From Planctomyces sp. SH-PL62 (lineage in GTDB: Bacteria; Planctomycetota; Planctomycetia; Isosphaerales; Isosphaeraceae): a DNA stretch of 64,000 bases. The DNA is taken from assembly GCF_001610895.1 (NCBI RefSeq), contig NZ_CP011273.1, positions 3,906,001 to 3,970,000 on the forward strand, read 5' to 3'. Every line of letters begins with the position of its first letter. Position 1 is the first letter of the stretch. Under the pieces are notes generated by a model. The model saw nothing but the letters and a program-made list of their open reading frames with translations. It was not told the origin of the DNA and ran no database searches. The position numbers were made by a program, and so were the translations under genes. Positions 4,789 through 32,791 of this stretch are shown piece after piece.

Positions 4789-4797
4789 TCCGGCTCG

Positions 4798-6915: not shown

Positions 6916-6916
6916 G

Positions 6917-8488: not shown

Positions 8489-8528
8489 CACGGTCCCTCG
8501 CGGAAAACGTTCCGAATTTCCAACACGA

Positions 8529-8568
8529 GCGAGGGAGCGAATCGGCCAGGGCCGGCTCGCTCCCTCGC
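8529..8568 (-). terminator. hairpin after sugar dehydrogenase gene
   Basis: A perfect 12-bp inverted repeat, GCGAGGGAGCGA at 8529-8540 against TCGCTCCCTCGC at 8557-8568, with a 16-base loop. It begins four bases beyond the stop of the minus-strand sugar dehydrogenase gene. No long T-run follows, so it is terminator-like by position and stem strength only. Confidence 0.5.
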
Positions 8569-8572
8569 GACT

Positions 8573-13779: not shown

Positions 13780-15495
13780 ATGGCGCGACGGCTCGGCACG
13801 ATCATGGTCGACATGGGCTACCTCGACGAGGAAGGGCTGATGCGGGCCCTCGAGGAGCAGAAGCGCGGCGCCGGCGAGCTCCTCGGCAAGGTGATCGTCC
13901 GGCTCGGGCTGGCGAAGGAGGACCACGTCCTCAAGGCGCTCGGCGAGCTGCTGGGGATGAAGGTGATCCGGCTGGGGGACACGACGATCCCGGCCGAGAT
14001 GACCGAGCTGGTCAACGAGAGCATGGCGACGGCCTTCAAGGTCGTGCCGATCTCGCAGAGCAAGAAGGACAAGAGCGTCACGGTGGCCATGGCGGAGCCC
14101 CAGAACCCCTCGACCCTGTCCGACCTGGGGTTGTTCCTGGGGGTGCCGGTCAAGGGGGTGGTCTCGACCGAGGCCGACGTGACCGCCGCGATCGAGCGGA
14201 TCTACGCCGGCCACCACGAGTCGATCCAGGACGTCGTCAAGCAGATCGAGCAGGACAAGGGCCTGCAAAAGATGGCCGGGCGGAACGAGAACACGATCGA
14301 CCTCGAGGCCATCGAGGAGATGGCCGAGGCCGCGCCGGTGCGCAAGCTCCTGAACATGGTCCTGCTGCTGGCGATCAAGGACAAGGCGTCGGACATCCAC
14401 TTCGAGCCGTTCGAAGAGGAATACAAGATGCGGTACCGGGTGGACGGCATCCTATACGAGCTGGTCCCCCCGCCCCGGCACCTGGCCGCGGCGATCTCCA
14501 GCCGCATCAAGGTCATGTCCAACCTCGACATCGCCGAGCGGCGGCTCCCCCAGGACGGCAAGATCCAGCTGGCGCTGGGGGGCAACAGCGTGGACATCCG
14601 GGTGTCGACGCTGCCGACGATGTTCGGCGAGAGCGTCGTGCTGCGGATCCTCGACCGTTCGGTGGTCCAGCTCGACCTCAAGCGGCTGGGGATGCCGGGC
14701 GACACGCTGGTCCGCTGGATGGAGGTGATCCAGAAGCCCAACGGCATCATCCTGGTGACCGGGCCGACCTCCTCGGGCAAGACGACCACGCTCTACGCCA
14801 CGCTGAACGAGCTGAACAAGATCGAGGATAAGATCATCACGACCGAGGAGCCGGTCGAGTACGAGATCGAGGGGCTGATCCAGGTCCCGATCAACCCCGA
14901 GATCGGCGTGACCTTCGCGGCCTGCCTGCGGTCGATCCTGCGGCAGGACCCGGACAAGATCCTGGTGGGGGAGACTCGCGACCTGGAGACGGCCGAGATC
15001 TCGATCCAGGCCTCGCTCACCGGCCACGTCGTCTTCACCACGCTGCACACCAACGACGCCCCCTCGGCCGTGACGCGGCTCCGCGACATGGGCCTGCCGA
15101 CGTTCCTCATCACCGCCACGGTGGAGGCCGTGCTGGCCCAGCGGCTCGTCCGGCGGCTCTGCGCCAACTGCAAGACCGAGTTCATGCCCAGCCCCGAGGT
15201 GGTCATGGAATTGGGCCTGACCGCGGAGCAGGCCGCGGGCCAGAAGTGGTACTACGGCAAGGGCTGCGACCGCTGCAACAACACCGGCTACAAGGGCCGC
15301 CAGGGCATCTACGAGCTGATCGTGATGAACGACATCCTCCGCGACATGATCGTCGCCGAGGTCTCGCTCGACGACTTCCGCGAGGCCTGCCGGAAATACG
15401 GCATGAAGACCCTCCGCGAGGCCGGACTCGAGGCCATTCACGAAGGCCGGACCAGCATCGAAGAGATCATGCGCGAGACGATGACCGAGATCTGA
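13780..15495 (+). CDS. GspE/PilB-family assembly ATPase, second copy
   Basis: A 571-residue extension ATPase. The N-terminal MshE/T2SSE-N domain (1-150) begins MARRLGTIMVDMGYLDEEGL; the second N-domain has KASDIHFEPFE; Walker A is the variant GPTSSGKTT at 328-336 (Ser in place of the usual third Gly); TEEPVEYEI, VFTTLHTNDAPSA and ILVGETRDLETA complete the active site. A zinc site is formed by Cys461, 464, 496 and 499. It lies 67 bases before the PilC/GspF gene and leads straight into the pseudopilin genes, so this is the likelier motor for that apparatus. Codon use is more strictly G/C-ending than in the first ATPase. Confidence 0.92.
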   Translation: MARRLGTIMVDMGYLDEEGLMRALEEQKRGAGELLGKVIVRLGLAKEDHVLKALGELLGMKVIRLGDTTIPAEMTELVNESMATAFKVVPISQSKKDKSVTVAMAEPQNPSTLSDLGLFLGVPVKGVVSTEADVTAAIERIYAGHHESIQDVVKQIEQDKGLQKMAGRNENTIDLEAIEEMAEAAPVRKLLNMVLLLAIKDKASDIHFEPFEEEYKMRYRVDGILYELVPPPRHLAAAISSRIKVMSNLDIAERRLPQDGKIQLALGGNSVDIRVSTLPTMFGESVVLRILDRSVVQLDLKRLGMPGDTLVRWMEVIQKPNGIILVTGPTSSGKTTTLYATLNELNKIEDKIITTEEPVEYEIEGLIQVPINPEIGVTFAACLRSILRQDPDKILVGETRDLETAEISIQASLTGHVVFTTLHTNDAPSAVTRLRDMGLPTFLITATVEAVLAQRLVRRLCANCKTEFMPSPEVVMELGLTAEQAAGQKWYYGKGCDRCNNTGYKGRQGIYELIVMNDILRDMIVAEVSLDDFREACRKYGMKTLREAGLEAIHEGRTSIEEIMRETMTEI

Positions 15496-15562: not shown

Positions 15563-16807
15563 ATGCCGACGTTCCAGTACGAAGCGATGGACCACACCGG
15601 GCGCGAGGTGAAGGACGCCATCGACGCCGCCACCCAGGAAGAAGCCCAGCAGCTCATCCGTCAGAAGGGCTTCTTCGTCACCAAGATCTCCGAGAAGGCC
15701 AAGAAGACCCGCCGCGCGGCGACCGCCAAGAAGGGGGGCCGGCGCAAGAAGAAGTCGTTCACGATCGGCCGGATCTCGACCAAGCAGCTCTGCACGTTCA
15801 CCCGGCAGCTCTCGACGCTGCAGGACGCCGGCCTGCCGATCCTCCGCAGCCTCAAGATCCTGGAAGGCCAGTGCAAGCCCGGCGTCCTCAAGAACGCCCT
15901 GGCGGACGTCGTCGAGGACATCGAGAGCGGCCAGACCCTCTCCGAGGCGTTCGCCAAGCATCCCAAGGCCTTCGACCGTCTCTACTGCAACATGATCAAG
16001 GCGGGCGAGGCCGGCGGCGCCCTGGAAGCCATCCTCCAGCGGCTCGCCGACTTCAAGGAGAAGGCCCAGTCGCTCAAGCGGAAGATCAAGGGGGCGATGG
16101 TCTACCCGATCGTCGTCATCTTCGTCGCCTGCGTGATCGTCGGCTTCATCCTCTACTTCATCATCCCCAAGTTCGAGGCCATCTTCAACGACTTCGGCGT
16201 CCCCCTGCCGAACATGACCAAGGTGCTGATCGAGGCCAGCCACTTCCTGATCAAGTACTTCTACATCGTGTTCCTGGCGCCGCTGTTCTTCTGGATGTTC
16301 ATCAAGCTCATGTACCGCAACAAGACCGGCGCGTACATCTGCGACCGCATCCTCCTCATGATCCCGGTCATGGGGACGATCGCCGAGAAGTCGACCGTGG
16401 CCCGGACCATGCGGACCCTGGGGACGCTCGTCCAGTCCGGCGTGCCGATCCTGGAAGCCCTCTCGATCGTCCGCGAGACGGCCGGCAACGCCGTCTTCGA
16501 ACGGGCCTTCACGCGGATCTACGAGAGCATCCGCGAGGGCGAGACCATCGCCCAGCCGCTCCGCGAGGCCCGGATCGTCGACGACATCGTCGTCAACATG
16601 ATCGACGTCGGCGAGGAGACGGGGGACCTGGACACCATGCTCAACAAGATCGCCGACAACTACGACGAAGAGGTCGAGGTGGCCGTCGAGTCGCTCGTCA
16701 GCCTCCTGGAGCCGATCATGATCGTCGTCCTCGGCGGCATCGTCGGCTTCATCGTCATCGCCCTGTTCCTCCCCCTGATCACGCTTATCACCAAGCTCTC
16801 GGGCTGA
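15563..16807 (+). CDS. PilC/GspF-family inner membrane platform protein
   Basis: A 414-residue polytopic protein of the T2SSF fold, the membrane platform that couples the ATPase to pilin assembly. Two copies of the cytoplasmic helical domain are visible (about 70-190 and 275-395), each with the family turn of Gly, Glu and Gly (GEAGGALEAILQRLA; GEETGDLDTMLNKIA). Membrane spans lie near 175-195, 225-250 and 380-405. A basic insert (KKGGRRKKKS) precedes the first domain. AGGAG lies upstream of ATG 15563. It sits between the ATPase and the prepilin genes, the normal order. Confidence 0.93.
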   Translation: MPTFQYEAMDHTGREVKDAIDAATQEEAQQLIRQKGFFVTKISEKAKKTRRAATAKKGGRRKKKSFTIGRISTKQLCTFTRQLSTLQDAGLPILRSLKILEGQCKPGVLKNALADVVEDIESGQTLSEAFAKHPKAFDRLYCNMIKAGEAGGALEAILQRLADFKEKAQSLKRKIKGAMVYPIVVIFVACVIVGFILYFIIPKFEAIFNDFGVPLPNMTKVLIEASHFLIKYFYIVFLAPLFFWMFIKLMYRNKTGAYICDRILLMIPVMGTIAEKSTVARTMRTLGTLVQSGVPILEALSIVRETAGNAVFERAFTRIYESIREGETIAQPLREARIVDDIVVNMIDVGEETGDLDTMLNKIADNYDEEVEVAVESLVSLLEPIMIVVLGGIVGFIVIALFLPLITLITKLSG

Positions 16808-16983: not shown

Positions 16984-18156
16984 ATGACTCGCCCCTCGAC
17001 CCGCCGACGCACCCCGACCGGCCCCGACCGGCGCGGCTTCACGCTGGTGGAGCTGCTGGTCGTCTTCGTCATCCTCTCGATCCTGATCGCCCTGCTCCTG
17101 CCGGCGATCAACGGCGCGGTCCGCACGGCCAAGAACACCGCCGCCTCGACCAACCTCAAGCAGCTCGACCAGGCCCTCGCCGCCTTCAAGTCGAAGTACG
17201 GCGACTATCCCCCCAGCCGGGTGATCCTCTACGAGAACGGCTACTTCCAGACCAGCGACACCACCGCCCTCGCGGGCGCCGCCCCCCAGGCCGACATGAC
17301 CCGCGGCCAGCTCGCCCAGCGTTCGCTGATGTACCTGAGGAAGTGCTTCCCCAAGGTTACGTTCAGCACCTCGGGGGCCGTCTGGACGGCGACCGACAAG
17401 CAGTGGTACGACTTCAACGGCAACGGCGTGTTCGAGACGACCCCCTACATCCTCCAGGGGCATCAGGCCCTGGTCTTCTTCCTCGGCGGGCTGCCGCAGG
17501 CCATGGGCGACGGCACCTACGCCATGACCGGCTTCGCGAAGAACCCGGCCAATCCGTTCACGCCCAGCGTCCCCCCGACCACCCCGGTCGCCGCCCCCAC
17601 GTTCTTCAGCAACAACCGCGAGACGCCGCTGTTCGAGTTTGCCGCCGACCGCCTCCAGGTCCAGGACCCGACCGCCGCCGTCCTCTTCCCCGGCTACATG
17701 GACAGCCTGGGCAACTCGCTGGGGGCCGACCAGATCAACTTCATCGCCTACTTCAGCGCCTACGGCAACAACGCCTACGACCCCAACGACGTCAACTTCC
17801 CGACCGAGCTGGACGGCAGCCTCCCCGCGGCCCCGATCCTCTCCCGGATCAACGTGCGGTTCCCGGTCCGGACGGCGGCCAGCGCGACGACGACCAACAT
17901 CGCCGTCTCCCCCTCGCCGAACCCGTACACCAACACGACGACGAACGCGGCGGCCGTGGGCTACATCAACCCCCAGACCTACCAGCTCATCTCGTCGGGC
18001 GTGGACGGGCAGTTCGGGCCCGGCGGCCAGTACAAGCCGAACGCCACGACCGGCGTGCTGCCGTTCGACGCGGCGACCACGGTCTCGGCGGACCTGAACG
18101 TCCGCCTCCGCGAGAAGGACAACCTGACCAACTTCCACGGCGGTCGGCTCGACTGA
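16984..18156 (+). CDS. prepilin-type protein, GspG-like
   Basis: A 390-residue exported pseudopilin. A short basic leader ends at Gly18, then FTLVELLVV follows with Glu23 at mature position +5: the class III prepilin cleavage and methylation site. The hydrophobic helix (19-45) and the KSKYGDYPPSR turn after it resemble GspG, but the globular domain is more than twice the usual size (GspG is about 140 residues). It is first in the pseudopilin series and may be the main fibre subunit. I start at ATG 16984; the open frame extends upstream only as an overlap with the platform gene in another frame. Confidence 0.88.
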   Translation: MTRPSTRRRTPTGPDRRGFTLVELLVVFVILSILIALLLPAINGAVRTAKNTAASTNLKQLDQALAAFKSKYGDYPPSRVILYENGYFQTSDTTALAGAAPQADMTRGQLAQRSLMYLRKCFPKVTFSTSGAVWTATDKQWYDFNGNGVFETTPYILQGHQALVFFLGGLPQAMGDGTYAMTGFAKNPANPFTPSVPPTTPVAAPTFFSNNRETPLFEFAADRLQVQDPTAAVLFPGYMDSLGNSLGADQINFIAYFSAYGNNAYDPNDVNFPTELDGSLPAAPILSRINVRFPVRTAASATTTNIAVSPSPNPYTNTTTNAAAVGYINPQTYQLISSGVDGQFGPGGQYKPNATTGVLPFDAATTVSADLNVRLREKDNLTNFHGGRLD

Positions 18157-18226
18157 TCGGCGGCCCCCACGAACGCGAGATTCCCACGGGCCCGGGGCCG
18201 TCCCGGGCCGGACGCGAAGGCCGGAG

Positions 18227-19906
18227 ATGGATGCGAACATGACGACCTCTCCCCGAAACACGATCCTCGACCCCCGGGGCGCCCCCCCGAGGCGCGGGTT
18301 CACGCTGATCGAGCTGATCGTCGTGATGACGATCATCGGGATCATCGTCACGCTCATCCTGATCGCCTCTCGCGACGGCATCCGCCAGGCCGAGGTCCGG
18401 GCCACCCAGGCCCTGATCCTCAAGCTGGAGTCGGGCCTCAACGACCGGCTCGACGCCCTCATGCAGCTCCGCCCCGACCCCAACTTCACCCACGGCTACC
18501 TGGCGGGGGTCTACCCCACGGGGGGCGGCAACGAGGCCGACGGCGCCCCTTACATGACCCCCCCCGCGCTCTTGCCCACCGGCTATCCCGACACCAAGGT
18601 CCGCACCACCGGGCGGGCCCTGGCATTCGCCGTGGCCGACTATCTCAAGAGCGAGATGCCCGACGTCTTCGTCATCCAGCACGGGCTCTCGGGCACGCCC
18701 GGAAGCCAGGACTACCCGATCAACTTCGCCGCCCAGCCGTTCCCGGGGACCGCCATCAACGCCCAGGGGAATTACGTCCTCCCGCTGGGGCACGCGGTGC
18801 AGGGGCCTCGCGGCGTCGACGCCGTGACGAACTGGGCCACCGGTTACGGCGACGGCAACATCAGCACCGGCATCTTCTACTCGTCGAACCCCCAGCTCGG
18901 GCTGACCGGCCGGGGGATCTACGGCGCCTCGTATTCGGTGGCGGCGGGGATCTACAAGAACCTCGGCTATCTGCCGGCCGGCTACGACATGGTCGACAAC
19001 AACAACAACGGGCTGATCGACGAGTGGAGCGAGGGGGTCGACGGCACGAACGAGGCCGACGTCCTCGCCCGGCTTGGTCAGCACACGCACGAGACGGCGC
19101 GGTCGGAGATGCTCTACGCGTTGCTGGTCGAGGGGCAGGGGCCCCTGGGCTCGATCTTCAACGCCGACGACTTCAGCGACCGCGAGGTCCGCGACACCGA
19201 CAACGACGGGCTCCCCGAGTTCGTCGACGCCTGGGGCAAGCCGCTCCAGTTCTTCCGCTGGCCCATGCTCTACCACTCCGACACCCAGCGCGGGCAGAAC
19301 ATCGGCCCCGACCTGACCGACGCGGCCGCCCCGCTCCGACTGCTCCGCCCGTACGACTCGATCTACCAGGCCCGCGAGCAGAACCCGCTCGACCCCAACC
19401 AGACCCTCATGGCGCCCGATTGGTGGCTGGAGTCGGAGAACGTCTCCCCCTTCGCCGCCGGACCGGGGACCCCGATCAATTCCAGCGGCGGGGTGGTCGC
19501 CTTCGAGACCTACTTCCACCGACTTACCGAGCCGATGCAATACACCACGGCGTCCACCGACGCGGCGAAATACTGGGATCGGGGCGGCTACACCGGCCTG
19601 GGCTACCGGCGGGCCTTCTTCAGCAAGCCGTTGATCCTCTCGGGGGGGCCCGACCAGCGGCCGGGGGTGGCGATGTTCCCCAATCCCTTGTCGCTGGGGA
19701 CGATCGACACGGCCGTCGCCGGCCTGATCTCGTTCGAGAACAACGCCATGCCATTCGACCCGAACGAGGTCGGACTCACGCCGAGCGGCGTGATCCCGGC
19801 GGCGAAGTTCGAGATGCTGGGCAACCCGAAGTCGTTCGAGCTCTGGGACGCCGGCCAGGACGACGTCACCAACCACAACGTCAACCTCGTCGGATCGGGA
19901 GGCTGA
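18227..19906 (+). CDS. large prepilin-type protein with Ca-loop-like motifs
   Basis: 559 residues. The prepilin site is Gly24|Phe25 with Glu29 at +5 (GFTLIELIVV). The globular part is unrelated to any standard pseudopilin I can name and contains two acidic loops of the DxDxDG type: DNNNNGLIDE at 257-266 and DTDNDGLPEFVD at 323-334, which look like EF-hand or thrombospondin type 3 calcium sites. ATG 18227 and ATG 18239 are both possible starts, since GGAG at 18223 serves either. Four bases separate its stop from the next ATG, so the genes are co-translated. It is probably a minor pseudopilin. Confidence 0.85.
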   Translation: MDANMTTSPRNTILDPRGAPPRRGFTLIELIVVMTIIGIIVTLILIASRDGIRQAEVRATQALILKLESGLNDRLDALMQLRPDPNFTHGYLAGVYPTGGGNEADGAPYMTPPALLPTGYPDTKVRTTGRALAFAVADYLKSEMPDVFVIQHGLSGTPGSQDYPINFAAQPFPGTAINAQGNYVLPLGHAVQGPRGVDAVTNWATGYGDGNISTGIFYSSNPQLGLTGRGIYGASYSVAAGIYKNLGYLPAGYDMVDNNNNGLIDEWSEGVDGTNEADVLARLGQHTHETARSEMLYALLVEGQGPLGSIFNADDFSDREVRDTDNDGLPEFVDAWGKPLQFFRWPMLYHSDTQRGQNIGPDLTDAAAPLRLLRPYDSIYQAREQNPLDPNQTLMAPDWWLESENVSPFAAGPGTPINSSGGVVAFETYFHRLTEPMQYTTASTDAAKYWDRGGYTGLGYRRAFFSKPLILSGGPDQRPGVAMFPNPLSLGTIDTAVAGLISFENNAMPFDPNEVGLTPSGVIPAAKFEMLGNPKSFELWDAGQDDVTNHNVNLVGSGG

Positions 19907-19910
19907 GACC

Positions 19911-21392
19911 ATGAAGCGCCTTACGCCGCCGCGATCCGCCGGACGCCCGCTTCGCGGCTTCACCCTGGTGGAACTGCTGGTCGTGCTGCTGATCGTCGGC
20001 ATCATCGCCGCCGTGGCCTTGCCCGTGGTCATCCCGGCGATCAGCCACCGCCAGGTCAGCGAGTCGGCCCGGATCGTCCAGGGGGGCCTGATCGCCGCCC
20101 GCGACGCCGCCCTGCGGACGAACACGCCCCACGGCATCCGCTTCCTCCCCGATTCGACCTATAACGGGATCGATCCGAACGAGCCCAATCCACTCCTTCG
20201 AGGGCAGATCAACCCCTTCCGCACCCTGGCCTCGAATCGGTTCATCCCAATCGAGCAGCCGCCGGGATACTCGGAGGGGAAGGTCTTCCTGAACACCACA
20301 ACGAGGGCCTTCAACCTCCAGTTCGACAACGCTCCCTCCCTGACGGGGCCGGGGGGCCTGCCCAGTGCCGCGGTCTATGACTCCGGCCGGCTGTTGATGA
20401 TCATCCAGTCGAGGTTTCGGACGGTCTACGACAGCTCGGGGAATCCGCTCTACCCCCTCGAATCGCCGACTTCGTGGTTCTGGAACGTCCGCAAGGGGGA
20501 CAAGATCCAGGTCAACAATACCGGGCCGTTCTTCACCGTCGTCGGCCCGATGGACTTCGACAACCCGGAGAAGTTCGTCAACGTGGATCCGGCGGCACCG
20601 GCGCTCTGGTTCAACCATCCGGTCAGCGGGTCGAAGTATTACCCCGAGTTCCTCTTCGTCGTCAACGGTGAGGACGATGACAAGGACGGGTACATCGACA
20701 ATGGCTACGACGGGCTCGACAACAACCTGATCAACGGCATCGACGACCTCGGCGAATGGTCGGAGGCGGAAAAATGGCCGGCCGCTTTCATGACCGCTAG
20801 CCCGAGCGTGGTGGGCCAAGCGTTCAACGGCGTCCCCTACACGATCATCCGTCGGCCGGTGCCGTCGCCGGGGGCGCGGGAGACGGTGCTGCCGTCGAAC
20901 GTGGTGGTGGACTTGACCACGTCGTTCCTGACGGCCGAGCGGTCGCGGCTGCCGGTCGATCCCTACTCCGGGAACGTGGACATCCTGCTCGACCCCAGCG
21001 GCCGGGTGGTGCCGTCGACCCAGTATTCGAGCCCCGCGTCGTTCGGGATGGCCTCGTCGTTCTATCACATCTGGCTGGCGGAGCGGAGCGACCTGGCGGA
21101 GGTGCAGACGACGGGGACGGCGCCCAACGTGACCGCCGTGCCGTTGATCTCGGGGAGGGACTTTCTCTTGCCGATGCCGCTGGGCCAGAACTTCGGGGCC
21201 TCTCCCAACGCCTACGACGCGTTGGTGGACGCGAATCCCACGCTCCCGTACCTGAAGGGGGAGATGCGGCTGCTGACGCTGTTCACCCGGACCGGGAACC
21301 TCATGACGACCGACCGCCCCGTGTTCGACGTGACCACGGTGGAACGGCCCTACCACGCTCCGCAGCTCGGCGAACAGGGAGACACGCCATGA
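19911..21392 (+). CDS. large prepilin-type protein, GspH-like N-terminus
   Basis: 493 residues. The cleavage site is Gly16|Phe17, Glu21 at +5 (GFTLVELLVVLLIVG). After the helix, ISHRQVSESARIVQGGLIAARDAALRT is like the GspH/FimT region. An acidic cluster DDDKDGYIDNGYDGLDNN at 255-272 suggests a calcium loop. GspH proteins are usually 150-190 residues, so this one is much extended. GGAGG lies just before the start, and its last four bases (ATGA) overlap the next gene. It would sit in or near the tip of the pseudopilus. Confidence 0.86.
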   Translation: MKRLTPPRSAGRPLRGFTLVELLVVLLIVGIIAAVALPVVIPAISHRQVSESARIVQGGLIAARDAALRTNTPHGIRFLPDSTYNGIDPNEPNPLLRGQINPFRTLASNRFIPIEQPPGYSEGKVFLNTTTRAFNLQFDNAPSLTGPGGLPSAAVYDSGRLLMIIQSRFRTVYDSSGNPLYPLESPTSWFWNVRKGDKIQVNNTGPFFTVVGPMDFDNPEKFVNVDPAAPALWFNHPVSGSKYYPEFLFVVNGEDDDKDGYIDNGYDGLDNNLINGIDDLGEWSEAEKWPAAFMTASPSVVGQAFNGVPYTIIRRPVPSPGARETVLPSNVVVDLTTSFLTAERSRLPVDPYSGNVDILLDPSGRVVPSTQYSSPASFGMASSFYHIWLAERSDLAEVQTTGTAPNVTAVPLISGRDFLLPMPLGQNFGASPNAYDALVDANPTLPYLKGEMRLLTLFTRTGNLMTTDRPVFDVTTVERPYHAPQLGEQGDTP

Positions 21393-22837
21393 TCCGACCC
21401 GGCGACCACTCCGACCGGCCGGGCCGTTCCGGCATCACGCTGACGGAAGTCCTGATCGGGATCATGATCCTCGGGGTCGGCCTGATCTCGATCGCGACCC
21501 TGTTCCCGATCGGCATCATGCGTCTGCGCGAGGCCCAGCGGCAGTCGCGCTCGGCGCTCCTGTTCGAGTCGGCCGCCGCCGACATGGCCGCGCGGAACCT
21601 CGTCAGCGCCGATTCGTTCGTCTACGCCGACTTGCTGAACATCTATGCGAGCGGCGCGTCGTGGTATCCCTGCCAGGTGAACCCGAGGACGCCCGACGGC
21701 CTGTTCAACCCCCTGCTGCAAGACGCCGCGTCCTACGGAGGCGACGTCTACACCGGCGTCGCCCCGACCGACCTGGTCGGGCTCGACACGACCAACCCGA
21801 TTTTCCACGTGCGCGGCAGCTCCGGGCTCCCGTTCGCCTACGACCCGCTCTGGCGATACAAGATGACCATGTATCCCCACGACGCCGCCGGCCTGGGCAG
21901 CGTGTCCGAGGGCCGCTTCGGTTCGGGGATCGGCTTCATCCGCGACGACCCGGGCGGCGGGGCCCCCAGCGCCCACGGGCTCCAGCGGCTCACGAACTTC
22001 AACGGCCGGGTCAAGAGCAGCTACACCAGCGGCGGCGTCGCCTACCCCATCTACTTCATGCAGACGACGAACACCATCCCGTCGATCTTCGTCTCGCCCG
22101 AGGACGTGGTCTGGAACGAGATCAACAATCCGACGAACAAGAGCCCGGTCCTCCCCGACCGGACGATCAGCGGCAATGGCGAATCCGTGAACGACTGGCG
22201 GTTCTCCTGGCTGTTCACCGGCCGGTTGACCAGCTCCAGCAACGCGGCGACCTTCGACGGCGACCTGGTGATCTACGAGAACCGCTCGTTCGACCTGGAG
22301 TTGATGAAGAGCCCCCTCGACGGCACCACCGACGTCTACAAGCCGGCCGACGAGACGGTCGTGGAGGCCGTGTACGGCTACAGCACGAAGGTGAGCGTCG
22401 TCGCCGGCAACACCGTCGGCTACGGCACGGCGTCCGACCGCACGGTGCTCCTGCGCTGGCCTGCCGCGATGGCCGACCCGGTCGTCAAGAACGGGGACTG
22501 GATCTGCGACGTGACCTATGAGCGCCAGCAACTCGTCGCCTTCGACCCGAGCTCCGGCGGCGGCCGATTCGTGGGCGTCCCCAACCCGCTCAACGGCGGC
22601 AAGTGGGACAACATGCCGGCGCAGCGGGCGTTCTGGTATCAGGTCGTCAAGCACTCGCCGGCCGTGACGGACGCGCAGCTCGGCGCCGCCTATCGCAGCA
22701 TGGTGGTGCAGGTCAACTCGACGCTACGCGCCCGGACGCCGCTGGTCCAGTCGTCCGGCGAGCCGGCGGTCGTGAACGCGGCCCTGATCGCGCCCCACGT
22801 CGTCAACGTGATCCCCCAGACCATCGTCATCCATTAA
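21389..22837 (+). CDS. large prepilin-type protein, GspI/PilV-like N-terminus
   Basis: 482 residues. The prepilin site is Gly15|Ile16 with Glu20 at +5 (GITLTEVLIGIMILGVG), and the helix ends with FPIGIMRLREAQ. The ITLTEVLIG form is closest to PilV/GspI minor pilins. The remaining 420 residues form a beta-rich globular region with no recognised domain. It overlaps the previous gene by four bases, so translation is coupled. As with its neighbours, size is two to three times the family norm. Confidence 0.86.
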   Translation: MIRPGDHSDRPGRSGITLTEVLIGIMILGVGLISIATLFPIGIMRLREAQRQSRSALLFESAAADMAARNLVSADSFVYADLLNIYASGASWYPCQVNPRTPDGLFNPLLQDAASYGGDVYTGVAPTDLVGLDTTNPIFHVRGSSGLPFAYDPLWRYKMTMYPHDAAGLGSVSEGRFGSGIGFIRDDPGGGAPSAHGLQRLTNFNGRVKSSYTSGGVAYPIYFMQTTNTIPSIFVSPEDVVWNEINNPTNKSPVLPDRTISGNGESVNDWRFSWLFTGRLTSSSNAATFDGDLVIYENRSFDLELMKSPLDGTTDVYKPADETVVEAVYGYSTKVSVVAGNTVGYGTASDRTVLLRWPAAMADPVVKNGDWICDVTYERQQLVAFDPSSGGGRFVGVPNPLNGGKWDNMPAQRAFWYQVVKHSPAVTDAQLGAAYRSMVVQVNSTLRARTPLVQSSGEPAVVNAALIAPHVVNVIPQTIVIH

Positions 22838-22973
22838 TGAACTGACGTGACCTCGATCGAGTCCCGTCGCGCGGGGCTCGGCCGTCGCATCGCCGCGATC
22901 GTTCGACCCGCTCCCCGCCCGCCGCGCCGTCCCTTTCGGGGCCGGGCGGGCCTTCCCGTGCAGGGGCCCAGTC

Positions 22974-25271
22974 GTGAAGCTCTACCGCCGCATGAACACG
23001 AAACTCCGCCGCCGCCGACGAGGCGTGACGCTCGTCGAGATGCTGGTCACGCTGGCCGTGCTCCTGCTCATGATGGCGCTCGTCGTCCAGATCTTCCAGG
23101 CGGCGACCGGCTCCATGAACGCCGCGCAGGTCTACCAGCGGCTCGACGACGACCTGCGGCGGGTCGACTCCACGCTCCGCTCCGACCTCGCCGGGGTCAC
23201 CGCCAAGCTCACTCCCCCGAACGACCCGAAGGACAATCGGGGCTACCTCGAATACGGCGAGAACGAGTACGCCGACAACGACGGCGAGGACGTCGACGAC
23301 TACATCCGATTCACCGCTAAGGCCCCCGCCGGCCGCCCCTTCACCGGCCGCATGTGGACCAAGCCGGCCAACGTGCTGGACGGGACGGGCGCGTCGGTGC
23401 CGATGTATTCGGATCTGCTGTCCGTCGATGCGCGCAAGGAGTCCCAACCTGTCACGGTCACCAGCGAGTATGCGGAGATCATCTACTTCCTCCGCAACGG
23501 CAACCTCTACCGCCGCGTGCTGCTGGTCGCCCCGGAGTTGCAGTCGAGGATCGTGAACAGCTACTCGGACACCACGGTCGCGAACACCAACCTGGGCTAT
23601 TTCCCCATGTCGCCGGGCGGCGCGCCGACGTTCGCCTGGGGCTTCTTCCCCAATCCCCTGGGGGCCCTGAAGGTGAGCTGGCAGGGGGTGAACGACCTCT
23701 CGGCCCGGCCTGCGGCCCGGGGCCTGGCGTCCGACACCGGCGCCAACAACTCCGTGGTCCTGAACACGCTCGCCGACCTAACCGACCGCCACAACCGCTT
23801 CGCCATGCCGCGGTTCTCCGACGACTTCATCCTCGCCAACGGCGCGGCCGGGCCGGACGGCATCCCCGACGACGCCAACGGCGACAACGTGCCGGACTGG
23901 TACCCCACGCTCTATCCGAACGTCATCGACGATTCGATCGCCGGAGGCGTGACGACGCGGGGGCTCTGGAACGTCCAGGACCCGAGCAACGCGATCACCG
24001 GCAACGGCAACCTGTTCCCCCGGCGCGCCAGCCTGGGGTTCCCGTTCGTCTTCCGGGGCGCCTATTCGCAGGCCCAGGCCCTGAACAATTACGCCTTCGG
24101 CTGGATCCACGCGCCCGCCCCCTTCGCCACCACCGGCGTCGGGGCGTCGCCTCCGATCTACCAGTTCGACCTCGATCCGGTCAACTATCTGAGATATCTG
24201 AACCACAACCCGCTGGACCTCGGCGACAACCTCCCGGCGCCGAACACTTCCAGAGGCAACTGGCAGAACCTTCAGTCGCTCTGGCAGTTCCCGACGTGGC
24301 GCGAGACCCTGGCGCCGGAGTGGAACGACCCGACCTTCCGGATCAATCAACCGGCCGTCGGCCATGCGTTCCCCAACGGCCTCGCGCCGCTCGATCCCGC
24401 CTCCGAGGTCGCTTTCGGCCACGTCGACCGGTCGTCCGCCCGCCGCGCGACGCTCCTGCCCCCCCTGACGGCCGACTGGCGCGGCGGGCGCAAGGCTCAG
24501 CCCTACACCGACGGCACGGGCTCGGACACCGGTTTCTTCAGCGGGGACCCGACGGACCCCCTGTGGGCGGGCTACAGCTGGGAGGACGACCTGATCCTGA
24601 CCAACGTCCGCAGCTTCGACATCAAGGCGTTCGACCCGGCCCTGGCCGACTACGCCGACCTCGGCTGGGGCGACGACTGGCGGGTCACGGACGGCCCGAA
24701 TCGACTCCCCGGCGCGCGGGCGGTCGAAGGGGCCACCAGCATCGGGGAATTTAAGTATCTAGGAACCAACAACATACTCCCCTATCTCCGGGGCAACATC
24801 GACGCCGTCCGCCGCGCGTTCCCGATCTTCACCAGCCCCATCGCCTACGCCTTCATCAAGGGCTCGGCGTACAACGCGGTGGAGCAGACGTTCGCCCACG
24901 AGGGCCGGATGCCGCCGCTGGTGAACGACTGGCGGTTCGACGCCCAGTACGGGGCCGCCGCCGCGGGCACCTACGACGCCGCCGTCTACCCGAACTACGA
25001 CGGCAACATCGGCGACGACTCGCCCGGCGTGGCCCGGCTGCGGCGGGTCTGGGACTCCTGGTCGACGACCTACAGCAAGGCGCCGGCGACCGGCGTGCGG
25101 AGCGACGGGTTCCCGTACGGCCCGCCGTTCACGCCGCCGATCTACCCCTCGTATCCGCCGCCGTACCCGGCTCCGCTGCGGGGGGTCCAGATCCAGATCC
25201 GGGTGACCGACCCGACCAATCAACGCATCAAGGTTCTCACGATTCGTCAGGATTTCACGGATAAGCTCTGA
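22974..25271 (+). CDS. very large prepilin-type protein, GspJ-like
   Basis: 765 residues. Prepilin site Gly17|Val18, Glu22 at +5 (GVTLVEMLVTLAVL), after an unusually basic leader (RRRRR). The stretch following the helix (MNAAQVYQRLDDDLRRVDSTLRSDLAG, then EIIYFLRNGNLYRRVLL) resembles GspJ, normally about 200 residues. A DDANGDNVPD loop at 299-308 is a possible calcium site. GTG 22974 has AGGGG seven bases upstream; ATG 22992 is the alternative. A Pro/Tyr-rich stretch lies near the C-terminus. The gene is 136 bases from the previous one. Confidence 0.86.
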   Translation: MKLYRRMNTKLRRRRRGVTLVEMLVTLAVLLLMMALVVQIFQAATGSMNAAQVYQRLDDDLRRVDSTLRSDLAGVTAKLTPPNDPKDNRGYLEYGENEYADNDGEDVDDYIRFTAKAPAGRPFTGRMWTKPANVLDGTGASVPMYSDLLSVDARKESQPVTVTSEYAEIIYFLRNGNLYRRVLLVAPELQSRIVNSYSDTTVANTNLGYFPMSPGGAPTFAWGFFPNPLGALKVSWQGVNDLSARPAARGLASDTGANNSVVLNTLADLTDRHNRFAMPRFSDDFILANGAAGPDGIPDDANGDNVPDWYPTLYPNVIDDSIAGGVTTRGLWNVQDPSNAITGNGNLFPRRASLGFPFVFRGAYSQAQALNNYAFGWIHAPAPFATTGVGASPPIYQFDLDPVNYLRYLNHNPLDLGDNLPAPNTSRGNWQNLQSLWQFPTWRETLAPEWNDPTFRINQPAVGHAFPNGLAPLDPASEVAFGHVDRSSARRATLLPPLTADWRGGRKAQPYTDGTGSDTGFFSGDPTDPLWAGYSWEDDLILTNVRSFDIKAFDPALADYADLGWGDDWRVTDGPNRLPGARAVEGATSIGEFKYLGTNNILPYLRGNIDAVRRAFPIFTSPIAYAFIKGSAYNAVEQTFAHEGRMPPLVNDWRFDAQYGAAAAGTYDAAVYPNYDGNIGDDSPGVARLRRVWDSWSTTYSKAPATGVRSDGFPYGPPFTPPIYPSYPPPYPAPLRGVQIQIRVTDPTNQRIKVLTIRQDFTDKL

Positions 25272-25382
25272 CGACGACGAAGAAATTCGGAACGCGCGGA
25301 CGCCCGACGGCGTCGAAACCAGGCCGGGCGGGGCGACGGACGCCGACGACACGAGACGAGACGAGGAAGCAGGGGGACGACC

Positions 25383-28300
25383 ATGACGACCAGTGCGTAT
25401 CGGAATCGACGTCGCGAGCGGCGGGGGGTCATCCTGATCCTCGTCCTCGGCGTGCTGGGGCTGATGGCGGTGATCGGCGTGACGTTCGCCACGTTCACCG
25501 GGCAGTCGCGGATCGCCAGCCGGAGCTTCGCCCAGTCGAAGATCCAGCCCCAGAGCGAGCAGCTCATGGAGTTCGCCCTGTCGCAGCTGATCAGCGACAC
25601 CAACGACGTCCGCTCGGCCATCCGGGGTCACAGCCTGGCCCGCGATATGTTCGGCAACGACGCCGGCAAGAACGGCTATCTCGACGCCCGCCCCGACGGC
25701 GCCCGGACGGCCCCCGGCAACAACTCGTTCTTCTACGTCACCCGGATCGTGGCGGGGGCGCTGCCCGGCCAGTACATCCTGAACACGAACATCCCCGAAG
25801 GCGACCCGCTGTTCTACGGGTACAACTTCCTGCGGTGGACGATCCGGGTCGGCTACGTGGGGAGCCCGCCCCCCACCGGCGTCACCGGCGCGATCAACCA
25901 GACCTTCGAGGTGGTCGGCGACGGCGGCTTCGTCGCGGGCTCGACGAACCCCCGCCAGCTGACGGTCGTGATCGCGCCGACGGACGTGAGCACGAATCTG
26001 AGGAATCTCAACAACATCTCGACGACGTTCCCGACGGGGACCAACACGGTCACCCCGGCGAGCCGGCTCGTGCCGAACCTGAACGCCACGTTCTCCACCC
26101 AGTTCCGGTTCATCCTCGACGGCCGCTGGCTCCACGCCTTCAACGGCCCCGGCAAGTCCACGAAGGCGAAGTACGCCAACTTCCGGTACAACCTGGACAT
26201 GCCCGGGGCCGTGGGGATGGACGAGGACTACGACGCCGTCGACCTGGAGAACTGGTTCCTGGCCATGCAAAGCGCGGACGGCCAGGTCATCATCCCGTCG
26301 TTCCACCGTCCGGCCAACCTCCGCTACGAGCCGGGCGTCCTCAACGATTGGGAAGACCTCCCCGCCGACACCGCGGTCGTCCGTCGCGAAAAGATCTCAC
26401 GGCTCCTCCGCCCCCGACAGGCCGACGGCCACGACCCCGTGGCGTTCCCCGATCTGATCCCCGACGCGACCACCGGCCAGATCACCTTCGACGTCGACAA
26501 CGACGGCGACGGGGTCTCGGACTCGGTCTGGGTGGACCTCGGCTACCCCGCCCGCCGCAACGCCCAGGGGACCCTGTACAAGCCCCTCTTCGCCTTCATG
26601 GTCGTCGGCCTCAACGGCCGGATCCCGCTCAACACCGCCGGCAACCTGGCGGGACGAGGGACCGGCGAGGAGTCCAACGCCACCCACGCCTCCCACCTCG
26701 GCAACTCGGTCAGCGAGATCGACCCGACGTACGGCCTGCAGAACGCGCTCTACCCCGGCTACGGGCAGGCCGATTCCTCGACTCTCGACGTCCGATTGAC
26801 CCAGCTCCGGAACATCCTGGCCGGCACCCGGCCCCAGGCTGACCCGAAGAAACCCGACATGACGGGTCAGGTCAACGGCGATGTCAACCTTGTCCAGATG
26901 GGCTGGCAGGACACCGCGCAAACCATTCCGATCTACACTTCGATGCCCAACGGCATCACCGACGTGGGGGACGTGGACTCCGCCGGAAACACGCCGCCGA
27001 CCGCCCCGGTCGTCCGCAAGACCAACCCGGTGGCCGGCCGCTGGGGCGAGCCTGAATCGGTCCCCGGCGGTCAATACACCCCCCTGGGCACGAACTACAG
27101 CAACGAGGTCCGTCCGGGCTACTCGATCAGCATCTACGACTATTTCGGCGGCGGCGGCGTGCCGGCCGACGCGGCCGACGACGACTTCAACTCGTTCGAC
27201 GTGTATCCGACCGCGTCGATCACTCCCCCCCGCGTCGGCGAAATCAACGACGCGGACTTCTACGACCCCGCCGGCGCCCTGCTGCTCCCCGTCGAGCGGA
27301 TGCGCCGCTTCCTGACGCCGGTCGACCTGAACGGCTCGGGCTCGGTGAGCCGCTGGAACTCCCGCGGCGGCGCGAGGAGCGGGGCTGACTACTGGGGACG
27401 CGTCGAGTACCGCGGCTACTATCGCCCCCCCGGCCTGCCGGGGCTGATCGACCCCGCCAACGGCCAGATCCTGTACCCGTGGGCGAGCGGCGACACCTAC
27501 CCGAACGCCATGCCCAGCAGTGCGAACGTCACGAACAGGCTCGCGCATAACAACAACATCCTCCACGGCTACGAGTCGTTCCTGAACCCGAACGCCCGCG
27601 GCGCCCCCCAGCGTGCCGGCGGCATCCTGGCCTACCAGGACTCGACCGCCACGCCCCCGCTGGCGATCGGCGCGCCGACGAAGATGCCGACCTACAACGG
27701 CGAGATCAACTCGGGGCTCCAGTACACCTATAACGACGTCGACGAAACCGGGACCCCGATCTCCGTCACCGTCAACAGCCGGTCCGACGGCCTGAACGAG
27801 GCCGACGAGCTGAACCTCTACAACCCGAACCCGAACCTCGACTCGCCGTTCAGCCACGCGGACCTGGAATGGCTCTACCGCCGCCAGGACGCCGACGGCG
27901 CCTCGCTGGGGAGCCGGCTCGCCTCCCTGGCCCCGATCAGCTTCCTGAACGACCAGGACGGCCTGCGTCGGCGGCGGCTCTACGCGATCGAGTCGTGGGA
28001 GAGCAACGCCTACGCCTGGGCCAACGACAACCCCGTCGACGCCTTGAACAACCCCCTCTTCCCGTCGAACAGCCGGTTCGCCTCCGGGGCCAACGCCAAC
28101 ATGGCGAACATCTCGGCGACGACCTCCACGCCGGCCCTGGCCCAGCGCGGGCGGAAGATCAACCTGAACATGCCGCTGCCGGTCTCGAACGACCCCAACG
28201 AGCCGATCCGCCGCAAGTGGATCACCGACGCCTACCAGTTGATGAAGACCGTGCTGCCGCCGCGGGCCGTCGACACGCCCGAGGAGCTGGCGCAGCTCGG

Positions 28301-31300
28301 GCAGTACCTCGTCAACCTGGTCGACTTCCGCGACCCCGACTGCACCATGACCCGCTGGGTCAACCCGGACGTCTTCCTCGTCCCCGTCGGCCGGATGACG
28401 CCCGTCAACGCGCTCCCCGTCCTCTCGTTCACCAACCCGAGCGGCGCGGTCCCCCTTGAGCAGTTCGGGATGGAGTTCAACCCGATCGCGATCAACGAGG
28501 TCCTCGCCTATTCGTACGCCCGCAAGGAGGGCGTCGGCCCGGGCGTGAACACCGGCCGATTTTTCGTGGAACTGGTGAACACGCTGACCCGGCCCGAAAC
28601 CGGCGAGCGCCTTCCTCGGTATCCGGGCGACCCCTTCAACAACGCCAGCCAGGTCAACCTCAGCGGCTTCAATTCAACCGCCGCCGCCCCCTACGACGGG
28701 GCCTGCTGGGACCTGATCTTCACCGAGGACCTCCCCGGCAGCCGCCCCGAGCCGTTCAGCGGCCAGCTCCAGCCGGGCGCCGTGGTCCACAGCCTGACGC
28801 CCCTGAGCCGGGCCGCGTTCACCCCGGCGGCCGACGCCGTCCTCAACCCCCTGCCGCGCCAGAAGGGGGGCTCGGCCGCCGACTTCTTCGGGTCGGCGAC
28901 CGACCCCAAGTACATCGCGACGATCGCCAACGCCTTCCCCGGGACCGGTACCGAGGCCGACAGCGAGACCAAGCCGGTCGCGGCGAATCTCCCCGGCACC
29001 GCCAACCTCTTCACGCTGGCCACCGCCTACGACCCGGTGAACCCGACCGCCGCGCCCACGCTCACCTTGCCGGCCGGAGTCCTTCCGAAGACGATCACCG
29101 GGGCGCCCGTCACGGTGATCCCGCCCAAGATCACTCGGATCGCGGGCCAGGCGACCTACTACTGGGTCTGCCTGCGACGTCCCGCCAACCCGATGGCCCC
29201 GGTCTCGGCCAACAACCCGATGATCGTCGTGGACAGCATGCGGTTCCCGTACATCGACGCCGGCGGCACCGTTCGGACCGACTCCACCCCCAATCCGACG
29301 ACCGACCCCAACCGCGTGGACCTCGTCAGCGCCAAGGGGGACAACGACATCTATTCGTATCAGCGGATGCAGCCGTATCGCGGCGGCCAGGCCGTCCCGG
29401 TGATCGGCGCGACGACCGGCAACATCGACCCCCGCTACGGCTACACCGAGCAGATCGCCGCCCCGATCACGACCCTGGGGGGGATGATCAACTACGGCAC
29501 GGGTACGACCCAGCAGGACGGCTCGCTGGGCCCCCAGGTCTCCAGGGGGACGATCTACCACACCCTGGGGCTCCCGAACGACGGCACGATCGCCGGCGCG
29601 AATCCGGCCGAGTACTGGGACTTTTTCCCGTTCCACGACCGCGACTTCACCAGCCCCTTCGAGCTGACCCTCGTGCCGGGCGTCGGCCCCGGGATGTTCA
29701 CCAAGCACTTCGCGGAGTTCGCCCCCACCGCGTCCAATGAATCCGGCTTCAAGGCGGCGGCGGCCGGCACCCTCGCCACCACCCGCTCGGGGCTCGTCAG
29801 GCCTATCCTGGTGACCGGGGCGGGCTCGCCCTGCGCCAGCGATCAACTGGCCCAACTGCTCCTGTATCGAGGCGCGAGCAGCCCCGTCGAGCCCCACACG
29901 TATCCCTACCTGGTCGACAAGTTCTTCTACACGGCGGCCGGGGCGTCGGGGATCACGGATACGCTCTACACCTCGCCGACCGCCGCGGCGACCGTCGGCG
30001 GCTACGCCGGCGACGGCTGGTTCAAGATGTTCGAGTTCTTCGAGGTCCCCAGCCAGATGGCCGGCGCCATCGGCTCGGTCGCCCAGGGGACGAACTTCGA
30101 CTGGGCCCGCCAGGACCTCAAGGCCGGCCTCATGAACCTGAACCTGATCATCGACGAGGAGGCGTTCCTCGCCCTCCTCGGCAAGCAGGACATGTCGGGC
30201 TCGCCCCCCACGTTCCAGCAGCGGTTGATGAATCCCTACATGCTGCCGCTCCCCTCCGATTTCTCGCCGGCCTACTCCGGGTTCACGGGGGGACTCTGGT
30301 CGGGCCCGCTGACGACCGGCCACCCGACGACCCCGATCATCGTGTCGGCGATCACCGCCGACGGCTCGCCGGCCTACGCCTACCCGATGCAGAACGTCGG
30401 GACGGTCGCTCCCGAGCCGGACTCGACTTCGCTCCAGAACCGGATGAAGGCCGCGTTCGCCCAGTTCCTCTGGACGCGGCACGGCGGGTCGGGCTTCCTT
30501 TTCGGCTTCGGCGAAGGGGCCACCGGGCAGAACATGGCGATCTCGCTCCCCACGCCCCCCACGCCGGCCGCCCCCTTCAACGCCACGTTCCTGACCCAGA
30601 TCCCGGCCGAGCGGCCCTTCCGCTCGCTGTCGTACCCCGACATCGGGGCCACGCCTATGCGGCCCGCGGCGCTGCCGCCCTCGGGCTACACCGACCCCGT
30701 CTTCGATTCGGCGAACCCCTGGGTGTCGTTCGATCCCGGCTTCCGCAGCCTGCTCAGGTTCCCCGGCTTCGATCGACTCGTCGGCCCGATCAGCACCGCC
30801 GCCGCGACGGTCCTGCCGCCGCCGATCCCGACGCGACGCCTCTTCCAGCTGCCGGACGCATTCACCGGCACCTCGATGAGCAACGCCAGCGTCCTGGGCA
30901 GCCCCTACATCAACCGCCTCAGCCCGGTCGGGGCCGGCAACCCGGCGATCGGCGCCATGCCGCCGATCCTCATGGCGTCCGACAACCTGGCGAGGAACAT
31001 CAACGACGGCGCGATCAACCTGTTCATCCCCGATACGAACACGCCGGCGACGTACGACAACGTCGACCACGGCCGCGGCGGTGCCAACCCCAACCTGACC
31101 CAGCACCCCTACTTCCGCAGCGAGCTGATGCAGCGGGTGCTGAACCTGACGACGGTGCGGACGCACCAGTACGCGGTCTGGATCACGGTCGGCTTCTTCG
31201 AGGTCAAGCGCGAAGGGGACATCGCCATGATCGGCAGTGCGTACCCGCAGGCGGCCTTCGACGTGCTGGGCCCGGAGATCGGGGCGTCGACCGCCGAGAA

Positions 31301-31412
31301 CACCCGTTATCGCAGCTTCTTCGTGGTGGATCGGCTCAAGCTCACGGGGTTCGACCCCGAGTCCGTGGGCGCGTTCCGGCCCGCCGTGGTGTATCGTCGG
31401 ACCATCGAGTAA
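25383..31412 (+). CDS. giant 2009-residue GspK-like pseudopilin
   Basis: The N-terminus has a basic leader, Gly15|Val16 and a hydrophobic helix ([20 protein letters not shown]), but position +5 is Leu20, not Glu. Lack of Glu5 is the hallmark of GspK, the pseudopilus tip subunit, and the gene is at the GspK place after the GspJ-like gene. GspK is normally about 300-330 residues, so this protein is about six times larger. It contains a [11 protein letters not shown] calcium-type loop at 370-380 and long Asn/Pro/Thr-rich beta-like stretches; I recognise no further named domain. GGGGA lies upstream of the ATG. One uninterrupted frame of 6 kb supports a genuine gene. Confidence 0.85.
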
Positions 31413-31534: not shown

Positions 31535-32791
31535 ATGAAGCCCCGTCGTCGTCGCCAAGGTTTCACGCTGATCGAGCTGCTGGTCGTCATCAGCATCATC
31601 GGCGTCCTGGTCGGTCTGCTGCTGCCGGCCATCCAGTCGGCCCGCGAGGCCGCCCGCCGCGCCCAGTGCCAGAACAACCTCAAGAACATCGGACTGGCGC
31701 TCAACAACTTCGCCATCCGCAAGGGCGCCTACCCGCCGGCCGGCACCTTCTTCGAGGCCCCGCCGGCCACCGCGACGGACGCGCTCACGTCGGTGCTCTA
31801 CCAGGCCCAGGCCTCGGGCGCCACGACCGTCGCCCCCCGCGCCGCGAAGAGCTGGGTGGTCGAGATCCTCCAGGACCTCGACCAGGCCGACCTGGCGAAC
31901 AACTGGACCCATGAGCTGAACTACCTGGCGACGACCGCCCCCGGCACCTCGACGCCGAACGGCCTCATCTCCAGGACCGCGCTCGCCATCCTGCGATGCC
32001 CGGACGACGCCAACTTCACCCCCAACGAGGGCAACCTGAGCTACGCCGCCAACGGCGGGTTCGCCCGGTTCGCGGCCGCCCCCCTCCAGTGGAAGGGGTT
32101 CACGATGGACGGCGACTCGGCCGGCGGCAGCCAGTCCACGCTCCTGAAGTGGGATTCGGCCGGCGCCCTGGCACAGGGCGTCAACCAGAAGCTCGGCGTC
32201 ATGTTCATCAACTCGATCTACAACAACAACTCCGGGATCGCCACCGACACCCCGACGGCCATCCCCGGCGCCATCAACGGCCGCAACCCCGGCTGGGGCG
32301 GGACGAAGACCACCACCGCGAGCATCGTCGACGGCTCGGGCTCGACCGTTCTCATCGGCGAGAGCACCCTGGTGGGCTACTCGACCGGTACGGCCTACTC
32401 CGGCATGGTCGAGACCAACTGGGCCGCCCCCTGGCCGACCTTCGCCCTGTTCATGGGCTCGGACGACATCTGCGGCGCCGCCGGAGCCTGCAACACCAGC
32501 CTGGCCGACGGCACCAACGCCACCGACTCCACCCTGTGGGCGGCCGCCAACCGGGTCGGCAACTATGAGAACATCGGCTACGGCCAGGCCCTGACGATCA
32601 AGGGGACCTTCCCCTTCGTGACCAGCGGCCACCCCAACGGCAGCAACTTCGCCTTCTGCGACGGCTCCGTCCGGTTCATCAACAACTCGATCGACGGCAC
32701 CGTCTACGCCAAGATCCTCACCCCGGCCGGCAGCAAGCTCCCGGTCCCCTTCAAGCAGCAGCCGGTCAGCCAGGACGCCTTCATCAACTGA
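31535..32791 (+). CDS. DUF1559 (SBP-bac-10-like) prepilin-type protein
   Basis: A 418-residue member of the DUF1559 family, which is greatly expanded in planctomycetes. The prepilin site is Gly9|Phe10 with Glu14 at +5 ([17 protein letters not shown]). The helix is followed by the family block [21 protein letters not shown], and the C-terminus has the H-x9-DG motif ([12 protein letters not shown]). Family function is not established; these proteins are exported and thought to be pilin-like or surface-associated. AAAGGA lies eight bases before the ATG. A hairpin before it and a strong terminator after it make this a separate unit at the end of the pseudopilin locus. Confidence 0.95.

Follow-up and report, generated by a model that had tools for sequence, protein, structure and literature searches.

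Within a window of 64,000 nucleotides from Planctomyces sp. SH-PL62 (contig NZ_CP011273.1, positions 3,906,001 to 3,970,000) we analysed an operon in which motor genes of pilus type (E1, T, E2 and F) are followed by six consecutive plus-strand genes for outsized pseudopilins (G1 to G6, also called genes 1 to 6). Our data suggest, with moderate confidence, that the operon encodes a machine for a retractile type IV filament, with a pseudopilin set of the kind found in the type II secretion system (T2SS), the heads of which have been enlarged by insertions. What is new is that proteins of the GspG-to-GspK type have grown by insertion and stand in a pilus-type motor operon that is kept across a bacterial class. 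The evidence computed here consists of the gene order and its conservation, the types of the motor proteins, the homology of genes 1, 2 and 6 to GspG, GspG and GspK, and the prepilin N-termini of genes 3 to 5.

A sequence-only reading of the window had drawn attention to six plus-strand genes of 390 to 2009 residues in the apparent order G, (x), H, I, J, K, had compared them with much smaller standard pseudopilins, and had supposed that their globular parts build a much larger tip or a surface fibre special to this lineage, possibly for handling polymers or for contact. The six open reading frames are present with these sizes (Table 1) and the outsized set is confirmed as a real observation. 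The GspG, H, I, J and K proteins of E. coli K-12 have 145, 169, 125, 195 and 327 amino acids (aa), so that standard members are indeed far smaller (125 to 327 aa), and the proteins here are about 2 to 6 times the usual size. The order of the E. coli genes after E and F is the same. Across the order-level loci the arrangement E1-T-E2-F-G1 to G6 was kept in 20 of 20, for the genes lying inside the fetched stretch, with G2 absent in two loci and one stretch holding genes 4 to 6 only. Because orthologues in the same order, all of them outsized, were found in every one of these loci, the six-gene set is more than a chance arrangement.

A class III prepilin N-terminus had been assigned to each of the six proteins, and this held in full for genes 1 to 5, all of which have Glu5 and a Pfam N_methyl match (E between 7e-9 and 1.4e-3), that of G4 (18.5 bits) being below the 21.2-bit cut-off. 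G6 gave no N_methyl match and has a prepilin-like hydrophobic start without Glu5, a residue that is absent from E. coli GspK as well (GVILILVLG vs GVALLIVLM). Judged from these features the set carries class III signal peptides (basic leader, Gly, hydrophobic helix and Glu5), in G6 without the Glu5. When the N-termini were ranked against profiles of the five classes, G1 and G2 went to GspG, G4 to GspI, G5 to GspJ and G6 to GspK, and together with the gene order this reads G-G'-H-I-J-K; the member left as (x) is a second GspG-like protein. Matches to NCBIfam models were below cut-off for G1 (TIGR01710 GspG, 1.6e-13), for G3 (TIGR01708 GspH, 2.7e-10 over residues 15-82) and for G4 (TIGR02523 PilV, 1.5e-4), while the N-terminus of G2 matched GspH (3.2e-7) ahead of GspG (3.3e-5) and G5 matched GspH (6.6e-4) and general prepilin models.

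The globular parts were compared separately, with the first 40 mature residues removed and a co-linear profile score set against shuffles. The alignments held 10 of 11 orthologue rows for G1, 14 of 15 for G2, 17 of 19 for G3, 18 of 18 for G4, 19 of 21 for G5 and 15 of 18 for G6, rows being left out for lack of a clear motif, for a competing match or by choice; in one locus (L049) the frame of gene 1 was first labelled G7 and then taken as G1. The profiles of the canonical classes rest on few sequences each (13 GspK, 3 GspG, 2 GspH, 5 GspI and 5 GspJ sequences). Twenty stretches with a standard GspK, picked for standard size, gave 12 profile GspKs, other canonical pseudopilins in four cases and nothing usable in four, and the GspK profile consists of these 12 planctomycete sequences, found by Pfam T2SSK, and that of E. 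coli. Against the three-sequence GspG profile the globular part of G1 scored 71.7 (shuffle maximum 16.1) and that of G2 42.8 (shuffle maximum 21.8), and in both cases none of 60 shuffles reached the score. Both proteins are therefore, by profile comparison, GspG homologues with the globular part included, and for G1, G2 and G6 such homology bears out the earlier view of a GspG-to-K set with enlarged heads. Genes 3 to 5 appear to be prepilins by their N-termini, and their labels GspH, GspI and GspJ rest on N-termini and gene order.

The strongest case is G6, for which the co-linear chain with GspK scored 110.8 (shuffle maximum 27.8, reached by 0 of 100 shuffles) and the profiles of GspG to GspJ gave at most 23.8. 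GspK-like marks were found at residues 925 (KINLN), 980 (VDFRDPD), 1427 (ELTLVPG), 1582 and 1928, and their spread over 925-1928 places the insertions between the core segments. These segments, chosen partly by eye, have a mean top-residue frequency of 0.75 vs 0.47 elsewhere in the protein; the one at 1427 overlaps a Pfam HHH match as well (0.19, far below cut-off). The curated models do not recognise the protein: Pfam T2SSK matched neither the whole of G6, nor five pieces of it, nor any of 15 orthologues, and NCBIfam gave no GspK match, or any other, for G6. Among six relatives, NCBIfam GspK matched two, with 21.8 and 11.7 bits against a cut-off of 130. A 1365-aa orthologue from outside the class, encoded in the same operon, has a match to this model at 1.1e-4, far below cut-off. 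Since the GspK segments are co-linear and the curated cut-offs are nevertheless missed, G6 is, as far as profiles can tell, a GspK homologue outside the curated families, with a core split by large insertions. Loops of the form D-x-[DN]-x-[DN]-G, which are possible calcium sites, occur in 18 of 18 orthologues of G6, 15 of 15 of G2 and 18 of 19 of G3, in 12 of 21 of G5 and 7 of 11 of G1, and in none of the 18 of G4. One Pfam T2SSK match in the genome itself, at 5.0e-4, was apparently not gene 6, and a further GspK-like gene may therefore exist.

The sequence-only reading had proposed structure prediction of the heads, and had held that globular domains proving to be standard enzymes unrelated to pili would speak against it. 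Only G4 and residues 1-1196 of G6 were folded. The AlphaFold model of G4 is fair (predicted local distance difference test, pLDDT, 73.6; predicted template modelling score 0.75), with a helix at 18-68 and then a beta-rich head, and that of the G6 part is poor (pLDDT 56). Fold searches with the two models gave no match at E <= 0.001. The best Z values with VIA, 7.6 for the G6 part and 6.8 for G4, were to beta-barrel domains and lie within the stated noise of the tool; as the matches are within noise and the model is poor, a ferredoxin-reductase-like barrel at residues 95-250 of G6 is not claimed. Sequence searches of the PDB gave nothing for G6, nothing below 0.3 for G4, and for G5 only geopilin N-termini (0.0018 and 0.017). 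An enzyme or unrelated fold was sought with Pfam, which in the six proteins showed only N_methyl and, in gene 1, weak T2SSG and DUF7311; pieces of G6 touched only the HHH motif (0.19 and 0.68). No enzyme family was matched, and the alignment members gave scattered weak Pfam matches only.

The supposed restriction to one lineage proved too narrow. Within the order, G6 matched in 37 of 45 genomes (24 of 26 among good ones). A profile of its N-terminus, with at most five candidates scored per genome, matched in 86 of 292 genomes of the phylum, namely the genome itself, one member of the family, 34 of the 35 genomes sampled in the other orders of the class, and 50 that lie outside it; in the out-of-class genomes among the matches listed, the G6 profile aligns only in its first ~110 positions. 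Across the class the G6 frames range in length between 1403 aa, for one close to the start of a contig, and 2909 aa. Loci were then chosen among genomes with a G6 match, 18 at class level and 16 outside the class. Gene order was kept in 18 of 18 class-level loci. In ten of these, gene 5 was not found in its place ahead of gene 6: it stands after gene 6 in two, and in eight it was not found within 10 kb downstream either. Outside the class the order was kept in 4 of 16 loci (L147, L149, L153 and L160), and of these L153 alone has a frame with gene 2 as its best match; in the remaining 12 there is a giant GspK-like frame but no motor gene in the stretch read. One out-of-class genome (L157, genome G055, 3504-9648) has two giant GspK-like frames, of 1011 and 1032 aa, one behind the other, without motor genes in the stretch read. 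The giant pseudopilin operon is thus class-wide in Planctomycetia and reaches beyond the class, and the gene order that was to be looked for in relatives is there. Ordinary GspK is also common in the phylum, with Pfam T2SSK in 176 of 292 genomes.

These frames bear on whether the giant sizes could be annotation artefacts, with neighbouring genes fused or frame-shifted, as might be thought in a high-GC genome with many long spurious open reading frames on the other strand. The untruncated order-level orthologues of G6 are single frames of 1849-2570 aa with invariant residues along their full length, and the class-level frames have the span already given. Because the frames are conserved we regard this explanation as refuted, and give it next to no probability.

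The motor genes were compared with both kinds of machine. The best PDB sequence matches of the PilT gene are PilT. E2 matched PilB best in the PDB (513 bits, GspE 409 bits) and also scored higher with PilB than with GspE in NCBIfam (614 and 597 bits, neither reaching cut-off), whereas F gave 408 bits with TIGR02120 GspF (cut-off 424) and 388 bits with PilC (cut-off 700). The scores of the motors thus seem to lean to type IVa pili, with F mixed, and those of the pseudopilins to the T2SS, and on these two leanings we base our reading of a type IV filament that is retractile and has pseudopilins of T2SS type; the retention of PilT inside the operon argues for retraction. PilM and secretin genes, which were to be looked for outside the window, were found there in one cluster of the 6.78 Mb genome (5 contigs), where a PilM of 827 aa (PilM_2 7e-35) stands beside a secretin of 1460 aa (Pfam Secretin 4.7e-26), so that the gene complement of a type IVa pilus (PilT, PilB, PilC, PilM and secretin) is present with the last two away from the operon. 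Between them are two genes without a Pfam match, which presumably occupy the places expected of PilN and PilO. This PilM and secretin are likely the partners of the operon; PilM was present in 19 of 19 chosen operon-bearing genomes, weakly in one. Repeats of GMMGSG type form the end of the gene that separates the PilN-like place from the large secretin (L063 4399-6534 and L054 14396-16000). The genome has two Pfam secretin matches, and the other one (L053) was set aside as a partner because inspection by eye of the neighbouring genes and of the ATPase and T2SSF matches there pointed to a Tad component.

Table 1. Genes of the operon and the gene directly downstream (window coordinates)
Gene	Coordinates	Strand	Product	Basis
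E1	10210..12003	+	PilB/GspE-type assembly ATPase, 597 aa	Pfam T2SSE 2.9e-137, MshEN 1.6e-20; heads the conserved gene row
T	12311..13423	+	PilT-type retraction ATPase, 370 aa	NCBIfam TIGR01420, 449.9 bits (cut-off 319.1)
E2	13780..15495	+	Second PilB/GspE-type ATPase with MshEN, 571 aa	Pfam T2SSE 3.6e-135
F	15563..16807	+	PilC/GspF inner-membrane platform, 414 aa	Pfam T2SSF 4.9e-71
G1 (gene 1)	16984..18156	+	GspG-like pseudopilin, 390 aa	N-terminus and globular part vs GspG
G2 (gene 2)	18227..19906	+	Second GspG-like pseudopilin, 559 aa	N_methyl 2.1e-8; globular part vs GspG
G3 (gene 3)	19911..21392	+	GspH-like pseudopilin, 493 aa	N-terminus, TIGR01708 GspH
G4 (gene 4)	21389..22837	+	GspI/PilV-like pseudopilin, 482 aa	N-terminus, TIGR02523 PilV
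G5 (gene 5)	22974..25271	+	GspJ/PilW-like pseudopilin, 765 aa	N_methyl 3.7e-6; N-terminus best with GspJ
G6 (gene 6)	25383..31412	+	Giant GspK-like pseudopilin, 2009 aa	Large insertions between co-linear GspK segments
G7	31535..32791	+	DUF1559 (PF07596) prepilin-like protein, 418 aa, directly downstream of G6	Pfam SBP_bac_10 9.2e-37 and N_methyl

G7 adds a seventh prepilin-like gene to the six noted before. Of the other Isosphaerales loci that were read downstream, 10 of 10 have a DUF1559 gene after G6, as do 6 of 18 class-level loci within the stretch read, and the genome has 107 matches to PF07596 on contigs C1 to C3, a few of them being fragments of a single gene. In locus L066 (C1:5212000-5231900, at 44-9515) three DUF1559 genes, of 314-323 aa, lie near three T2SSF genes and one T2SSE ATPase, which may be a second compact filament-like cluster with candidate pilins of its own. 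Three further prepilin-motif matches outside the DUF1559 list are clustered at C1:5695424-5698590 (frames of 263-305 aa, one match weak, E 0.06), and a second pair of T2SSE ATPases, one of them PilT-sized in its match, lies at about 8433-11699 of locus L064 (C1:2214000-2233900) with no T2SSF match beside it. Upstream of E1, at 8720-9826 on the plus strand of the window, is a 368-aa open reading frame without a Pfam match.

Several results weigh against a retractile filament with a full GspG-to-K set. In their globular parts G3, G4 and G5 did not match their own classes significantly: G3 scored 16.0 with GspH (two-sequence profile), reached by 2 of 60 shuffles, G4 scored 8.5 with GspI, reached by 42 of 60, and G5 scored 15.4 with GspJ, reached by 7 of 60, and higher scores were obtained for G4 with GspJ (15.2) and for G5 with GspH (17.8). 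The N-terminus of G3 ranks GspG (96.0) above GspH (93.8), with the GspH alignment being the longer. The Gsp families of Pfam match the alignment members weakly or not at all: T2SSG is below cut-off for G1 of the window and has E <= 1 in 7 of 10 members of the G1 alignment, and GspH was found in 2 of 17 members of the G3 alignment (best 0.011). No pilin was among the structural matches of G4 or of the poor G6 model, which excludes nothing, and F is slightly nearer to GspF than to PilC. In P. limnophila a triple deletion of pilQ-like genes is viable according to passages of PMC11958385, which fits badly with an indispensable machine if those genes are its secretins.

The preference of F for GspF would suit a T2SS that exports folded enzymes, in which the enlarged pseudopilus would be a piston for the wide planctomycete periplasm and PilT would only reset it; so would the order E-F-G-H-I-J-K, which equals that of E. 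coli gsp, and the homology of genes 1, 2 and 6. PilT in the operon is unusual for a T2SS, however, and here it is conserved; PilM is a separate protein, as is typical of type IVa pili, and E2 is closer to PilB than to GspE in the PDB comparison. We consider a secretion system of this kind rather unlikely. The many DUF1559 genes suggest another role, as an assembly platform on which the G-to-K proteins would prime a filament with its main subunit chosen among ~100 paralogues with varied binding domains. The 107 matches in the genome and the DUF1559 gene following G6 throughout the Isosphaerales loci are in line with this, as are the 68 paralogues of P. limnophila, of which two are essential according to passages of PMC10632474. 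Such a gene follows G6 in just a third of the class-level loci, however, the remaining DUF1559 genes are scattered over the chromosome, the L066 cluster could serve them, and DUF1559 is treated as solute-binding in the R. baltica work, as passages of PMC2754498 have it; we hold this role to be improbable.

The filament machine that we favour can be compared with several described systems. Like the E. coli K-12 gsp pseudopilins it has its genes ordered after E and F, class III N-termini, a GspK without Glu5, and globular parts that contain GspG and GspK segments, but its pseudopilins are ~2-6 times larger, it has two GspG-like genes, and it includes PilT and a second ATPase. With the type IVa pilus it shares ATPases of PilT and PilB type, a PilC/GspF platform, a separate PilM and a secretin, and differs in its T2SS-type pseudopilins, in a PilM that has 827 aa where the Pfam model covers 340, in two MshEN ATPases, and in having PilM and the 1460-aa secretin encoded away from the operon. 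A resemblance to Verru_Chthon cassettes (TIGR02596, TIGR02599 and TIGR02600), which we take from the name to be of Verrucomicrobia, lies in the combination of prepilin-type families with one very large member (1296 positions in TIGR02600). TIGR02596 matched only the N-termini of G3 (1.4e-9) and G1 (1.5e-6), below cut-off. Verru_Chthon_A (TIGR02600) was absent from the matches of G6 and of six class or phylum relatives, and its cut-off of 332.3 was passed in 0 of 10 genomes, with four weak places (best E 3.7e-4) outside the operon.

In the literature the closest counterpart is Plim_0410-0401 of P. limnophila, where, in the passages available of an essential-gene study (PMC10632474), four type II secretion genes stand ahead of six proteins that are specific to planctomycetes and have no known function. 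This layout matches the operon, the equivalence being one of layout without a sequence comparison; since gene 5 was missing from eight of the class-level loci, the sixth P. limnophila protein may not be G5. Modular pilins, in which a pilin module carries extra domains (S. sanguinis PilB, CofB and GspK), are thought to be tip-located; GspK with its inserted alpha-domain is already counted among them, and the most extreme multi-domain member surveyed, with added repeats, has 860 residues (PMC8179133, in part). Unlike these, the set described here is enlarged as a whole, is kept class-wide, and has its insertions inside the GspK core. By title, no planctomycete pseudopilin or GspK set of this kind was found in the open-licence PubMed Central literature (print beyond it may differ), where the only paper found for Planctomycet* with GspK concerns S. 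sanguinis PilB and no mention of Verru_Chthon was found.

By homology, the two extension ATPases (E1 and E2) and the PilC/GspF platform would assemble the filament, a prepilin peptidase would cleave the prepilins, and G4, G5 and G6 (I-J-K) would form a tip that starts assembly. G, G' and H, perhaps joined by pilin-like proteins of the DUF1559 family, would make up the shaft. Given the large heads of the shaft subunits we would expect a filament thicker than usual, with a very large tip, that PilT could pull back. Planctomycetes have large crateriform structures, at least some of which link outer and inner membrane, and these bear pili-like fibres of 12 nm at which dextran-gold is mainly found (passages of PMC5394234); arrays of R. 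baltica showed pilM, pilT, pilC and pilB induced in salt stress (PMC2754498, in part). A role of the operon in polymer handling at the crateriform structures would fit the dextran-binding fibres, and we put it forward only tentatively. The fuller proposal, still more doubtful, is that the operon builds the crateriform complex and its 12-nm fibres as a retractile filament spanning the wide periplasm, which with its giant GspI-J-K tip and interchangeable DUF1559 subunits might bind polysaccharides at the surface and pull them into the periplasm.

Three of the six unrecognised members are GspG or GspK homologues and the rest are prepilins, and their enlarged heads show why curated models miss such pilins. 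It appears that pilin heads, GspK above all, can grow far with the core kept, beyond the modular pilins described in the available passages of PMC8179133. The passages of the cited work, including Boedeker et al., assign no genes to the crateriform structures, to their fibres or to the uptake of large polymers, and with a class-wide motor operon at hand this question becomes a gene-by-gene test.

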